Shown here: piece by piece, positions 1 to 41,693 of the stretch
How positions within the stretch are numbered: position 1 is the first letter of the stretch
Layout of the letters: each line of letters opens with the position of its first letter
DNA from: Acidobacteriota bacterium
Lineage (GTDB): Bacteria > Acidobacteriota > Terriglobia > Terriglobales > Acidobacteriaceae
Length of the DNA stretch: 42,708 nucleotides
Direction: 5' to 3'
Assembly (NCBI GenBank): GCA_021779935.1
Contig: JAJXZT010000060.1
Location: forward strand, 1 to 42,708
The notes under the pieces: generated by a model
Database searches by the model: none
What the model saw: the letters and a program-made list of their open reading frames with translations, nothing else
Told to the model about the DNA's origin: nothing
Position numbers and translations under genes: made by a program

Positions 1-498
1 ACTTGTTGCATCCCAGGGTGAAAATCACATCCTATAATCAACATGTTCGGCTCCTTCTTCCTGAGCCTTGGTCGTGGTACTTCCAAGACTACTCGGGTTG
101 CAAGGAGCCGACGTCGTTATGAAATCACGTGATAAAGCAGGTTTCGGAAGTTTCGAGAAGCAAGGATCACCACAGGGGTCACAGAGGAACACGGAGGAGA
201 AACGAAGAATTGAACGCAGAGGTCGCGGAGGAGCGCGGAGAAATGAATGAAGGAATGTCGAAGAGCGAATAGAAGAAGGAAATTCATTCGCAGTTGTGAG
301 AGGCGGGGCGTAAAGTAATCGGCGCGGTAGGTTGGGTCACCAGCTAGGTCGAGCGTCGAACCGCGCCACTCTGTCGCAGGGCGCGAGTAAGGTAGGGTAC
401 GCAGAGATTCGTAGGATCGAAAGCGTTGTTAGCAGCCACGGTCGAGTTTATAAAATTGAACGTGTGTCCTCCCGAGCAGTGAAAGGGAACGATAAAAC
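1..498. other. Gene-free leader region with repeat debris
   Basis: No convincing gene is visible in these 498 bases. The stretch at 167-231 holds two short motifs of the CAGAGG type (see the repeat entry). The only open frame, 68-250 on the plus strand, translates those repeats (SPQGSQRNTEEKRR and similar) and has no protein-like features. The last 200 bases before the zinc-ribbon gene presumably hold its promoter, but I see no clear -35/-10 pair. Confidence 0.6.
167..231 (+). repeat. Dispersed CAGAGG-type repeat, two motifs in tandem
   Basis: The first motif (167-199) reads roughly TCACCACAGGGGTCACAGAGG followed by AACACGGAGG. The second (211-231) is GAACGCAGAGGTCGCGGAGG preceded by T, one base different from the copies that flank the GxxExxY gene at 27348-27368 and 27770-27790. 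The first motif is related to the stretch inside mnmG at 21571-21598. Short purine-rich repeats of this style are common between genes in Acidobacteriota and Verrucomicrobiota; their role is unknown. Confidence 0.7.
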
Positions 499-27330: not shown

Positions 27331-27346
27331 AAATCCTCTAAAAGGA

Positions 27347-27380
27347 TTGAACGCAGAGGTCGCAGAGGATCGCGAGGGTT
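27347..27380 (+). repeat. Left inverted repeat of the GxxExxY cassette
   Basis: GAACGCAGAGGTCGCAGAGG with a preceding T (27348-27368) is a perfect 21-base inverted match to 27770-27790. The similarity continues for about ten more bases (ATCGCGAGGG against TTCGCAAAGG). It begins right at the stop codon side of the GxxExxY gene. Confidence 0.85.
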
Positions 27381-27791
27381 AAAGACGATTTACAATCCGC
27401 GAGATACCATCTCTGAGATGCTCAACGTGAAAGTTGATCAACAGTCCCAATCGACTTTTGCGAAGGCGCAGATAAGACAATAGTTGCGCCTTGTGGACCG
27501 GCTGAATGGACTCTATCGCCTTCAGTTCGATGATGACTTCGTCCTCTACGAGCATATCAAGCCGGTAGCCGATATCGAGAACGACGTCGTCATATGTGAC
27601 CGCAAGCGGAACTTGTGTCGTGACATGAAAGCCAGTCTTGCGCAGTTCGTATGCAAGGCAAGCCTCATATGCACTTTCTAACAATCCCGGCCCGAGCGCC
27701 GTGTGGACCTTCATCGCACCCGAATGATTCCGGCGGAAATGCGGTTCAATTCAACCGGACCTTTGCGAACCTCTGCGACCTCTGCGTTCAT
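27379..27791 (-). pseudogene. GxxExxY protein gene, frameshifted near its start
   Basis: The main frame (27379-27714) encodes 111 residues with the family signature G10-LL-E13-SA-Y16 and a PD-(D/E)XK-like nuclease core: D53 in YRLDMLVED and E63-L-K65. The natural N-terminus is in another frame: an ATG at 27791, inside the flanking repeat, begins MNAEVAEVRKGPVELNRISA and reaches IIRVR, then a stop at 27711-27713. One added base near 27715 would join this to MKVHTALGPG and restore a protein of about 137 residues. So the gene has lost one base, or the assembly has an error, or translation restarts at 27714. Both ends touch inverted copies of the same repeat. Biochemical role unknown. Confidence 0.8.
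27760..27791 (-). repeat. Right inverted repeat of the GxxExxY cassette
   Basis: On the minus strand this reads TGAACGCAGAGGTCGCAGAG, one G and then TTCGCAAAGG. It pairs with 27347-27380 and contains the ATG that once started the GxxExxY gene (27789-27791). Confidence 0.85.
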
Positions 27792-27797
27792 TCTTGT

Positions 27798-33083: not shown

Positions 33084-33095
33084 CTTTTAGGCCCT

Positions 33096-33120
33096 GTAGG
33101 CCCAGCCGCCCTCGGCTGGG
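33096..33120 (+). repeat. REP-like palindrome 5' of the intact RAYT
   Basis: GTAGGCCCAGCCGCC followed by CTCGGCTGGG folds on itself (CCCAGCCG with CGGCTGGG). With one mismatch it is the inverse of 33676-33700. Confidence 0.85.
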
Positions 33121-33143
33121 CGGTCGAGCGAAGCTCGACTAAA

Positions 33144-33650
33144 ATGACACGCGTGATCCCGAAGCACTTCTACCGTCGCAACCTTCCGCACATTCAACGT
33201 GACTCATATCCGCATTTCATCACTTTTTGCACATATCATCGTTGGATTCTTCCGCCTGCTGCCCGCGAGCTCGTGTTGCATTCCACGCGACACGATCACG
33301 AGATACGTGCTTTCATCCATGCGGTAGTGGTCATGCCGGACCATGTTCACATGGCCCTAACGCCATTGACCAACGAGTACACACGGCAGACTTGGGCGCT
33401 CGCCGACATCATGGGTCCGATGAAAGGCGCATCCTCGCACGCGGTCAATAAGCTGCTCGGCAGGAAAGGAACAGTGTGGCAGGAAGAGTCATTTGATCGC
33501 GTCCTTCGCAGCAATGAGGATGTGAACGAGAAGCTCTCTTATATTCTTCACAATCCAGTACGAGCCGGGCTGGTAAAAAGGGCGCGGGAGTACCCTTGGC
33601 TGTGGACGGCAAGTCCTACGCTGTTTGACTACGTGCCGCCGCAACCTTAG
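33144..33650 (+). CDS. REP-associated tyrosine transposase (RAYT)
   Basis: The 168-residue product is a Y1 HUH single-strand nuclease of the TnpA-REP type. The metal-binding HUH motif is MPDHVHMAL (H67, H69) and the catalytic tyrosine is Y133 in LSYILHNPVRAGLV. WQEESFDRVLRSNED is also typical. RAYTs cut and join REP palindromes as DNA hairpins and are normally immobile, vertically inherited genes. Here the coding region lies between two inverted REP-like palindromes (33096-33120 and 33676-33700), as expected for a natural REP-RAYT unit. The gene appears intact. Confidence 0.93.
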   Translation: MTRVIPKHFYRRNLPHIQRDSYPHFITFCTYHRWILPPAARELVLHSTRHDHEIRAFIHAVVVMPDHVHMALTPLTNEYTRQTWALADIMGPMKGASSHAVNKLLGRKGTVWQEESFDRVLRSNEDVNEKLSYILHNPVRAGLVKRAREYPWLWTASPTLFDYVPPQP

Positions 33651-33675
33651 AAATAGGTGCGCTCGCGCGCACCCG

Positions 33676-33700
33676 CCCAGCCGGGGGCGGCTGGGCCTAC
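33676..33700 (-). repeat. REP-like palindrome 3' of the intact RAYT
   Basis: CCCAGCCGGGGGCGG followed by CTGGGCCTAC is an imperfect hairpin and the inverse of 33096-33120 with one mismatch. It also lies just after the thrS stop codon on the other strand and might act as its transcript end. Confidence 0.85.
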
Positions 33701-33708
33701 ATGGGTGG

Positions 33709-35682: not shown

Positions 35683-35800
35683 GAGAGGTCTCCGCTCGCA
35701 CCTACAAGTGTGCAATGCAGATGGATTGAATCTTTGAGTGTAAAGACTATGGAGAGAAGGGTCAAACGGGGTGTCGATTAGAGGGTATCCCGAGTGATTG

Positions 35801-35845
35801 TGCCCTACCCTTGTCGCCCGCTGTTGGCGACAGGGTGGGGTAGTT
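35801..35845 (+). repeat. 45-bp REP-like palindrome, copy 1
   Basis: The unit contains TTGTCGCCCGCTGTTGGCGA with flanking TGCCCTACCC and CAGGGTGGGGTAGTT. The core TGTCGCC/GGCGACA is a hairpin. It is the exact inverse complement of copy 2 at 36166-36210. Confidence 0.9.
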
Positions 35846-35924
35846 GGAACCGCGACCCGGAACAGACTTTGTTGTGCCATCAAGGGAATATCCCTCCGCA
35901 ATATCTTCCATCTCGACCGCGACG

Positions 35925-36153
35925 GAAGGAGCGCGTCGCGGCCCTGCGCTATATCCATCGCAATCCGGTAAAGCGCGGACTGGTTGAGTTGCCGGAAGAG
36001 TGGCGCTGGAGTAGCTTTCTCCATCATGCGACTGGGGTGGAAGGTGTAGTTGAGATCGAATCGGAATGGACGGTACGCAAGCGCGAGCGGATGGGCGTGG
36101 TGCCTACGGTCAAGTACAAACCGCAGTGCACACCCGAAGAGAAGATGCGATAG
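35925..36153 (+). pseudogene. RAYT transposase remnant, C-terminal part
   Basis: This frame encodes KERVAALRYIHRNPVKRGL followed by VELPEEWRWSSFLHHATG and a tail rich in charge (ESEWTVRKRERMGVV). It is the C-terminal third of a REP-associated transposase, including the catalytic-tyrosine segment (RYIHRNPV), but the HUH domain is missing. The tail differs from the intact RAYT at 33144, so it belongs to another RAYT family. It lies between perfectly inverted 45-bp palindromes. The last 44 codons are duplicated at 37515-37646. Confidence 0.85.
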
Positions 36154-36242
36154 CTGGCGGCGATGAACTACCCCACCCTGTCGCCAACAGCGGGCGACAA
36201 GGGTAGGGCACAATCAAGCGTGCACGACCAGTAGGGTGGGCC
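36022..36242 (+). repeat. 221-bp duplicated module, copy A
   Basis: The module comprises the last 44 codons of the RAYT remnant, a spacer, REP copy 2 and the trailing GTGCACGACCAGTAGGGTGG. It aligns without gaps to 37515-37735 with scattered, mostly third-position changes in the coding part, so the copies diverged while still under some coding constraint, or they come from two related RAYT genes. Confidence 0.85.
36166..36210 (-). repeat. 45-bp REP-like palindrome, copy 2
   Basis: It is the exact inverse of copy 1 and follows the RAYT remnant stop by 12 bases. Confidence 0.9.
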
Positions 36243-37336: not shown

Positions 37337-37431
37337 AGAGATTCGACTGGTGGTCCACTCTTTCCGCTGTGGAGTTTACCCCCCAAATCTATCCGCAAGA
37401 AAAGAATTCTTCGTGTCCTCCGTCAAATACG

Positions 37432-37476
37432 AACTACCCCACCCTGTTGCCAACAGCGGGCGACAAGGGTAGGGCA
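37432..37476 (-). repeat. 45-bp REP-like palindrome, copy 3
   Basis: It is the same orientation and sequence as copy 2 with one change (CTGTTGCC for CTGTCGCC). It is followed by AGGGTGGGCCACC at about 37500. Confidence 0.88.
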
Positions 37477-37514
37477 CCATTAGATTCATACGATGCGCAG
37501 GGTGGGCCACCAGC

Positions 37515-37646
37515 CATCATGCCACCGGAATCGAAGGCGTGGTCGAAATCGAATCGGAATGGACGGCACGCAAGCGCGAGCGAATGGGGGTGGTGCCCAC
37601 GGTGAAATACAAACCGCCGTGCACGCCCGAAGAAAAGATACAATAG
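37515..37646 (+). pseudogene. RAYT transposase remnant, last 44 codons only
   Basis: The frame HHATGIEGVVEIESEW and the tail RKRERMGVVPTVKYK end at a TAG (37644-37646). It is parallel to 36022-36153 codon for codon. No start or catalytic part remains; upstream the sequence switches directly into REP-associated sequence. Confidence 0.85.
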
Positions 37647-37658
37647 CCGGCGGCGATG

Positions 37659-37703
37659 AACTACCCCACCCTGTCGCCAATGGCGGACGACAAGGGTAGG
37701 GCA
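37659..37703 (-). repeat. 45-bp REP-like palindrome, copy 4
   Basis: It has three changes relative to copy 2 (CCAATGGCGGACGA in place of CCAACAGCGGGCGA), so its hairpin is weaker. Confidence 0.85.
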
Positions 37704-37775
37704 CAATCAAGTGTGCACGACCAGTAGGGTGGGCCTGCCATAGGGTGGCCCCCCGGCCGATTTACAAGGGGGCAG

Positions 37776-40119: not shown

Positions 40120-40149
40120 AAAACGGGGAGCGCAATGCTCCCCGTTTTT
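40120..40149. terminator. Strong terminator, shared stem sequence
   Basis: AAAACGGGGAGC and GCTCCCCGTTTT form a 12-pair stem, then T. The A-rich left side makes it work on both strands, so it also serves the convergent gene at 40186. The stem is identical to that at 41663-41692. Confidence 0.9.
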
Positions 40150-41642: not shown

Positions 41643-41662
41643 GGTAGGAACGAGAAAGTTGA

Positions 41663-41693
41663 AAACGGGGAGCCAGTGCGCTCCCCGTTTTTA
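41663..41693. terminator. Strong terminator after the PEGA gene
   Basis: AAAACGGGGAGC and GCTCCCCGTTTT form the same 12-pair stem as at 40120-40148, with a different loop (CAGTGC), followed by T. Confidence 0.9.

Follow-up and report, generated by a model that had tools for sequence, protein, structure and literature searches.

GxxExxY proteins are widely annotated, and we know of no role for them. The stretch of DNA analysed here, 42,708 nucleotides from an Acidobacteriota bacterium (hereafter the window), holds a GxxExxY gene that lies between inverted copies of a short repeat. Do the gene and its flanking repeats form one element? Or, has the gene been caught between repeats that owe their spread to something else? 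A literature search, outside which most subscription papers fell, returned no description of such arrays flanking GxxExxY genes.

The gene, at 27379-27714 on the minus strand, scores above the curated cut-off of two profiles, with 137.9 bits for TIGR04256 (cut-off 35) and 131 bits for PF13366 (cut-off 22). These are the sole matches in those profile searches, and neither is an HUH/Y1 transposase. A fumarylacetoacetate-hydrolase-family gene lies on one side and an fn3-domain gene on the other, and the source genome of 4.49 Mb contains this one GxxExxY gene. The repeat copies that a sequence-only reading had placed on both flanks are there, as an inverted pair of 35 nt at 27345-27379 and 27759-27793, 89% complementary and with 379 nt between them, and the layout recurs in relatives. 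Simple arithmetic says that the 21-base exact inverted match within this pair, at such a short distance, is not chance. The 21-base repeat itself is not one unique 21-mer, however, but a few copies of a 7-bp unit in tandem: each arm consists of two to three CGCAGAG-type units set 9–10 bp apart. The arm 5' of the gene (27759-27793, minus strand) contains CGCAGAG at 27780-27786 and at 27771-27777 and CGCAAAG at 27761-27767. The arm 3' of the gene (27345-27379, plus strand) contains CGCAGAG at 27352-27358 and at 27361-27367, then a degenerate third unit. A further copy had been noticed at 211-231. It was recovered as an array at 205-237 on the plus strand (CGCAGAG, CGCGGAG and a degenerate third unit), 91% identical to the left arm over 33 nt, with no inward partner or adjoining gene. 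Beside it and in the same orientation is a degenerate array of another type (167-198, plus strand; CACAGAG and CACGGAG, read by eye), and locus L007 has an arrangement similar to these two neighbours. Outside the window, three more arrays in the source genome match one exact pattern.

The window contains other repeats as well. A likely REPtron occupies 33092-33704, with a Y1_Tnp gene (PF01797, 25.8 bits, cut-off 23) at 33144-33650 on the plus strand and inverted arms at 33092-33130 and 33666-33704 that are 87% complementary. Another dispersed repeat, beginning AACTACCCCACCCTGTCGCC, has inverted and direct copies in 35795-36242 and 37431-37735, and falls partly within a 222-nt direct repeat at 36021-36242 and 37514-37735 (89%). 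Inverted near-copies of a hairpin-like sequence beginning AAAACGGGGAGC, possibly terminators, stand about 1.5 kb apart at 40120-40149 and 41662-41691.

Does the repeat encode the start of the protein, as had been proposed? In the window copy it does not. Within the right arm, the ATG at 27789-27791 on the minus strand opens a frame other than that of the conserved domain, and by eye this frame stops where the domain-frame ATG (27712-27714) begins. The segment 27715-27791 on the minus strand is the counterpart of the relatives' N-terminus in this other frame, while the domain frame is open from the ATG at 27714 without the first helix of the relatives. Eight bases separate the II of helix 1 from MKVH, where relatives encode three residues. 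Because relatives have one base more at this junction, the window copy has either an internal start that omits the first helix or a broken frame. It looks frame-broken at its N-terminus, the probable cause being a 1-nt frameshift. Of the 86 relatives with an array upstream, 64 have no stop in the domain frame as it passes through the array; in these an ATG lies at or before the array in 24, only inside or after it in 29, and nowhere in 11.

The association of gene and arrays was followed across genomes. GxxExxY matches were present in 158 of 398 genomes searched from the window's taxonomic family. The family set of 91 loci comprises the window, the 30 best matches and 60 further ones taken nearly in score order, so that it is a high-scoring set and not a random draw; some loci near contig ends were skipped. 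Arrays were defined as two or more units of the motif C[AG]C[ACGT][AG]A[GT], which was derived from the arms of this same set. They flank the gene on both sides and point inward at 80 of the 91 loci, with the reverse arrangement at 3. A profile scan with each species represented by one genome confirmed 583 loci, and the best 80 of these formed a wide set. It includes Chloroflexi, Cyanobacteria, Planctomycetes, Bacteroidetes, Proteobacteria, Acidobacteria, Verrucomicrobia, Dojkabacteria and Methanosarcinales, among others. In this set, archaea included, both arms are present and inward at 56 of 80 loci and reversed at 8. Flanking arrays are thus far commoner at GxxExxY genes than in distal control windows 700–1060 bp away, where inward pairs were found at 0 of 85 loci in the family set and 0 of 58 in the wide set. 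Flanking repeats no commoner here than elsewhere would have refuted the sequence-only reading, and this was not the outcome.

The same result was obtained without the motif, from the best inverted local alignment between the 300 bp upstream and the 300 bp downstream of the gene. In the family set the score was at least 20 at 84 of 89 usable loci, against 15/89 for direct alignments, 27/88 for arms of different loci and 1/89 for shuffled sequence. The corresponding values in the wide set, from which ten loci too close to a contig end were excluded, were 52/70 inverted, 31/70 direct, 15/70 cross-locus and 11/70 for the maximum of 20 shuffles. The high direct scores arise because several loci carry extra arrays or arm hairpins. 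Two inward arms are missing at 24 of 80 wide and 11 of 91 family loci, some of them near contig ends, and a Methanothrix locus (L207) has no inverted pair (motif-free score 13). Arms of the window's form are nevertheless present in Methanosarcinales (L195, L204), and arms are also found in Dojkabacteria (L237). That oriented arrays accompany the gene so often, and over so great a phylogenetic distance, suggests that the two belong together.

The arms have a common anatomy. A general arm begins with TTMAC and continues with two to four, rarely more, C[AG]CN[AG]AG-type units at a spacing of 8–10 bp; in the family set the spacing is 8 in 208 instances, 9 in 158 and 10 in 37, others being rare. 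With arms aligned at the first unit, the five positions before it (-5 to -1; TT, A/C, A, C) hold most of the remaining information. At -6 it is at most 0.2 bits in the family set, and the wide set retains 0.2–0.4 bits at -6 and -9. The downstream arm starts at a median of 4 nt past the stop codon and overlaps the end of the frame in 26 of 80 cases.

The two arms of a cassette also resemble each other. The majority unit is common to both in 115 of 136 cassettes, against a mean of 25.8 and a maximum of 38 in 1000 permutations. Even within one unit type (126 of the 136 cassettes), a cassette's own two arms score 17.3 and arms from other cassettes 13.1 (sd 0.36); the unit variant is particular to each cassette. 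In the family set, unit type is distributed in accord with the protein tree, with 15 changes against a shuffled mean of 45.5 and a minimum of 40 in 200 shuffles. In the wide set there is no such agreement, the tree needing 29 changes against a shuffled mean of 32.8 (minimum 27).

The alignment of relatives shows conserved residues G21-E24-Y27, D64, E74-x-K76 and Q88-xxx-Y92; in alignment A1 the residues D64, E74, K76 and Q88 are invariant and Y92 nearly so. QxxxY is a hallmark of RecB-type nucleases. Five structure models of the protein at locus L008, built from 20 aligned sequences, reached a best pLDDT of 90.7, two of them being poor (53.8 and 49.5). Foldseek placed SSO0001 (4ic1, E 2.5e-3), LHK-Exo and lambda exonuclease first among solved structures, with 4ic1, 3sz4 and 6m9k at E 2.5e-3 to 6.7e-3 and none at 0.001 or better. 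SSO0001 is a Cas4 protein. VIA-align gave Z 9.7 against SSO0001 (rmsd 3.5, 100 aligned, 17% identity), then Z 8.3 for the restriction-endonuclease-like 3ijm, followed at about 7 by several nuclease-fold and some unrelated chains. A sequence search of solved structures gave no convincing match (best E 0.79). In a defence library the Cas4 profile matched weakly, at E 0.002 for the window protein and 5.9e-4 for L089, and did not match L008; L089 also matches unnamed candidate defence models, PDC-M36A (1.6e-4). In one paper, the same gene is named GxxExxY by one pipeline and cas4 by another tool (PMC8934634). The protein models as a Cas4/lambda-exonuclease-like PD-(D/E)XK fold, and nuclease activity is predicted. 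Among 15 pairs of GxxExxY genes tried, dN/dS was 0.03–0.15 in 12, several of which have dS above 1.5; two of the other three pairs were of unequal length and one was saturated. On this codon comparison the protein is under purifying selection.

Arrays are also scattered away from the gene. For three unit types, exact hits to a two-unit pattern were counted across 150 genomes; these counts miss other unit types, and their reversed-pattern control can match inside period-8 arrays. Arrays of the CACAGAG, CACGGAG and CGCAGAG types occur in 85, 77 and 77 of the 150 genomes, respectively. At least five arrays are present in 60 of 74 genomes with a GxxExxY gene and in 16 of 76 without a detected gene; 8 of the 74 have fewer than three arrays of the types counted. 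The expected relation of repeat number to gene number was borne out in part. Its Spearman coefficient is 0.68 over the 150 genomes. With one genome per genus it is 0.64, at least five arrays being found in 33 of 41 genomes with the gene and 11 of 38 without. After four hits per gene are subtracted it is 0.46 (51/74 and 16/76). The relation is not specific, however, since counts of S23 genes track arrays nearly as well (0.64; partial coefficients 0.47 for S23 and 0.55 for GxxExxY). Part of the correlation is therefore a general property of repeat-rich genomes.

What surrounds the scattered arrays? A sample centred on arrays, with one locus per genome and pattern, gave 90 loci: 3 gene cassettes, 26 gene-less inward pairs, 45 solo arrays, 13 with partners in the same orientation only, and 3 outward pairs. 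Counted as partners within 700 bp of the 90 arrays, inward ones number 29 and outward ones 7. The likeness of the arms in the 26 gene-less pairs is not significant (8.5, permuted mean 6.8, sd 1.05, maximum 10.6), and in G049 and G114 the pairs without a gene that were read have no more than 27–52 bp in common around the arms. A match in type between scattered arrays and the resident cassette is significant while cassette arms are counted (p 0.0015) and not after their removal (p 0.29), a step that charges four hits per gene and may over-correct. One genome, G133, has 413 exact hits to the CGCAGAG pattern. In the stretches read from it (L397, L399, L400, L404), the arrays form part of a larger repeat that is itself dispersed, with matches of up to 211 bp at 73–94% identity.

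The sequence-only reading had supposed that solo repeats are non-autonomous products of a minimal mobile unit. Three orthologous sites were compared, with class counts taken from a rescan. At the first (L081, genus g28), the cassette is present in 3 of 22 sequences and no array in 14. G164 differs from G287 by a 312-nt internal deletion of the gene, with both arms and the flanks kept, and so has a gene-less copy with both ends of the kind expected of a MITE-like derivative. This single case supports the idea of gene-less products, in the form of a pair of arms. Also at this site, G275 has one cassette-type arm with a second array farther in, G281 a single array and G268 an outward pair of another type; G178 was left unclassed.

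The second site is flanked by a class-II tRNA synthetase gene (PF00152) and an arginase-family gene, and both anchors are present in 16 of its 24 loci. A CGCAGAG-type cassette occupies four of these, a CGCCGAG-type cassette three, and nine have no array. Among the nine, G293 has an assembly gap, and seven carry by eye inverted pairs of another, ACTGAGAAC-like unit. Locus L009 combines both types, with the last unit of a CGCCGAG-type arm behind a complete arm of the CGCAGAG type, so that one cassette was replaced by another or received it. At the third site (L071, genus g7; L370-L393) both anchors are present in 21 of 24 loci. The cassette is found in two, a CACGGAT-type pair in another two and nothing by motif in 14. 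G325 has a gene-less CRCNGAG pair, G189 one arm by motif and two by eye, and G202 one array. By eye, the 14 without a motif match include ten taatt/attgag-type inverted pairs, a degenerate array (G333), a REP-like repeat (G252) and a long other insert (G006), and G291 has nothing. Presence and absence across these sites indicate that the gene cassette is patchy and that such spots hold many inverted tandem pairs.

Are the cassettes mobile? They end in terminal inverted repeats, as insertion sequences and transposons do. Empty sites with a precise boundary, the other check that the sequence-only reading called for, were sought at the three sites; their intergenic flanks are too diverged, and none gave a base-exact join of an intact target. 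Cassette ends are accordingly defined by conservation. A DNA search with the window's own site found orthologous neighbours, in G029 for example with about 300 bp between two matches. Among the 136 cassettes there is no convincing target duplication over 13 x 13 offsets and lengths of 2–9 (1352 combinations). The top signal, 6 against 0.3 expected, lies 2 nt inside the conserved TTMAC; the best outside it, 8/136 against 1.4 expected, is weak and uncorrected for shared ancestry. No near-identical cassettes were seen within a genome in 28 pairs of fetched copies from 20 genomes. The closest pair, side by side in G004, is 78% identical over the domain. One GxxExxY query matched 8 of 72,556 plasmids and 0 of 50,697 phages, which is too few to supply close empty sites and is what a gene resident in the chromosome would show. 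That no convincing target duplication and, among the copies compared, no recent ones were found, together with the 16 of 76 gene-less genomes that have arrays, speaks against simple transposition. The sequence-only interpretation is thus supported in part. Of the supposed minimal mobile unit, the gene-less derivative is in its favour, and against it stand the target duplications and near-identical copies that were looked for and not found.

Another family of genes is found in the same setting. At 30 loci with S23/four-helix-bundle genes (L098-L127), of which two short ones were excluded, the inverted arm score was at least 20 in 24 of 28 usable loci. Controls gave 0/28 across loci, 1/28 for direct alignments and 2/28 for the highest of 20 shuffles. 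Each locus was centred on its gene, a choice that is slightly off at L103 and L110. By eye, these arms are mostly tandem units of about 7 bp, such as AGCTTTC, CAGTTCC, TAGCACT, GAGCAYC and CAGACTT, among others. The unit varies by locus and matches between the two arms of a locus. Arrays of the GxxExxY type were found within 300 bp of none of the 30 S23 genes, and farther off at 4 of the 30 loci. The S23 genes with their inverted tandem arms make the GxxExxY cassettes look like a second, unrelated occupant of that architecture. A 23S rRNA intervening sequence was considered as an identity for the cassette and rejected, as Rfam gave 0 matches in the window and 10 GxxExxY loci and the protein is not S23.

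We propose that the cassette is one functional unit, an intragenomic element resembling a REPtron, with a Cas4-like nuclease in place of the HUH transposase, and give this a probability of about one half. Its layout, its breadth, the concordance of its arms, the purifying selection, one gene-less derivative and the alternation of cassette types at a fixed site are in the data. The element would have a low-copy, conserved nuclease gene framed by repeats, and the chromosome that carries it would also contain arrays standing alone and inverted pairs without a gene. Most probably the nuclease would recognise the arrays and nick or process DNA there. The DNA bounded by the arms would then be copied or converted by repair, with another array as template. 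Such copying would keep the arms alike, spread arrays and swap cassette types at a site, and internal deletion would leave gene-less pairs. The Cas4/lambda-exonuclease-like fold suggests end processing or nicking and not DDE transposition, which agrees with the lack of convincing target duplications.

An alternative that we consider unlikely places the element at the level of RNA. As in an intervening sequence of 23S rRNA, the arms would pair in the transcript and a host ribonuclease would cut the stem, so that the arms serve insertion tolerance or expression. A stem would require concordance between arms, as is seen, and the inverted tandem-unit arms at 24 of 28 S23 genes of the studied genomes recall the known intervening sequence, which has terminal inverted repeats, RNase III excision and tandem heptamers before S23p (PMC4990558). 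Yet a scan of the window, two S23 loci and ten GxxExxY loci against Rfam, rRNA families included, gave 0 matches; the unit sequence is conserved from bacteria to archaea, beyond the need of a stem; and 45 of the 90 sampled arrays have no partner within 700 bp with which to pair.

The gene might instead be a passenger, the arrays being moved or amplified by an unlinked enzyme or by replication slippage or template switching, and the nuclease gene being caught between them and kept for a defence- or repair-like role. Array-rich genomes without the gene (16/76) fit this, as do the 27–52 bp shared around the gene-less pairs in G049 and G114, the larger dispersed repeat to which the G133 arrays belong and the other inverted tandem-array pairs at intergenic spots. 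Passengers would hardly show an association so frequent, oriented and phylogenetically broad, no GxxExxY-type arrays lie within 300 bp of 30 S23 genes, and the defence library returned just weak Cas4 and unnamed-candidate matches; this account also seems improbable to us. Homing, in which the nuclease cuts gene-less array sites and the cassette is copied in by homologous repair, has a very small chance of being right. Solo arrays would be its targets, a nuclease fold is predicted, and two cassette types occur at one site, where one of them retains part of an arm of the other. It predicts a target split by the gene, however, with which inverted arms do not fit, and none of the three sites gave a base-exact empty site with an intact joined target. 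The element with its own nuclease thus remains our preferred reading. If the flanking array is the DNA partner of the GxxExxY protein, function becomes directly testable with one protein and one oligonucleotide. The scattered CACAGAG-, CACGGAG- and CGCAGAG-type repeats, each type in about half of 150 genomes, would also have an owner.

A bolder and more tentative suggestion, which is rather less probable than the element itself, extends to both gene families. The GxxExxY nuclease and the S23 four-helix bundle, although unrelated, may each have built a minimal chromosomal element, with a gene between inverted arrays of 7-bp units and gene-less pairs as satellites. These could represent an unrecognised class of array-bounded selfish elements in bacteria and archaea, in which a nuclease, not a transposase, would maintain and spread the arrays and homogenise the arms.

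How do the cassettes compare with known systems? The Coxiella intervening sequence consists of an S23p gene and terminal inverted repeats that form a 28-bp stem, with tandem heptamers, and is excised from rRNA by RNase III (PMC4990558). Elements of this S23 (TIGR02436) kind resemble GxxExxY cassettes in size, about 0.4 kb, in their one small ORF and in their inverted tandem-heptamer arms. The GxxExxY protein is unrelated, however, the units are other ones and the scanned loci lack Rfam matches. With Cas4, lambda exonuclease and RecB-type PD-(D/E)XK nucleases the protein shares the predicted fold, D64, E74-x-K76, Q88-xxx-Y92 and weak Cas4 profile matches, but it is only about 120 aa long, has 17% identity to 4ic1 and never reaches a Foldseek E of 0.001. 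MITEs and insertion sequences are similar in their terminal inverted repeats and in the gene-less derivative formed by internal deletion. They differ in that the cassettes have yielded no convincing target duplication, known transposase or recent copies.

The closest parallel is the REPtron (RAYT/TnpA-REP with REP/REPIN). REPtrons combine HUH transposases with palindromic repeats, and RAYT genes are described as single-copy, with no evidence of mobility reported (PMC8266576). Like them, GxxExxY cassettes have a low-copy conserved gene bordered by an inverted repeat that is dispersed in the genome, with scattered solo repeats and inward pairs. The protein is of the PD-(D/E)XK type and not HUH/Y1, and the arms are tandem, non-palindromic 7-bp units, unlike palindromic REPs with their GTAG-type tag. 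If the proposed reading is correct, HUH transposases are not alone in following the REPtron way of life.
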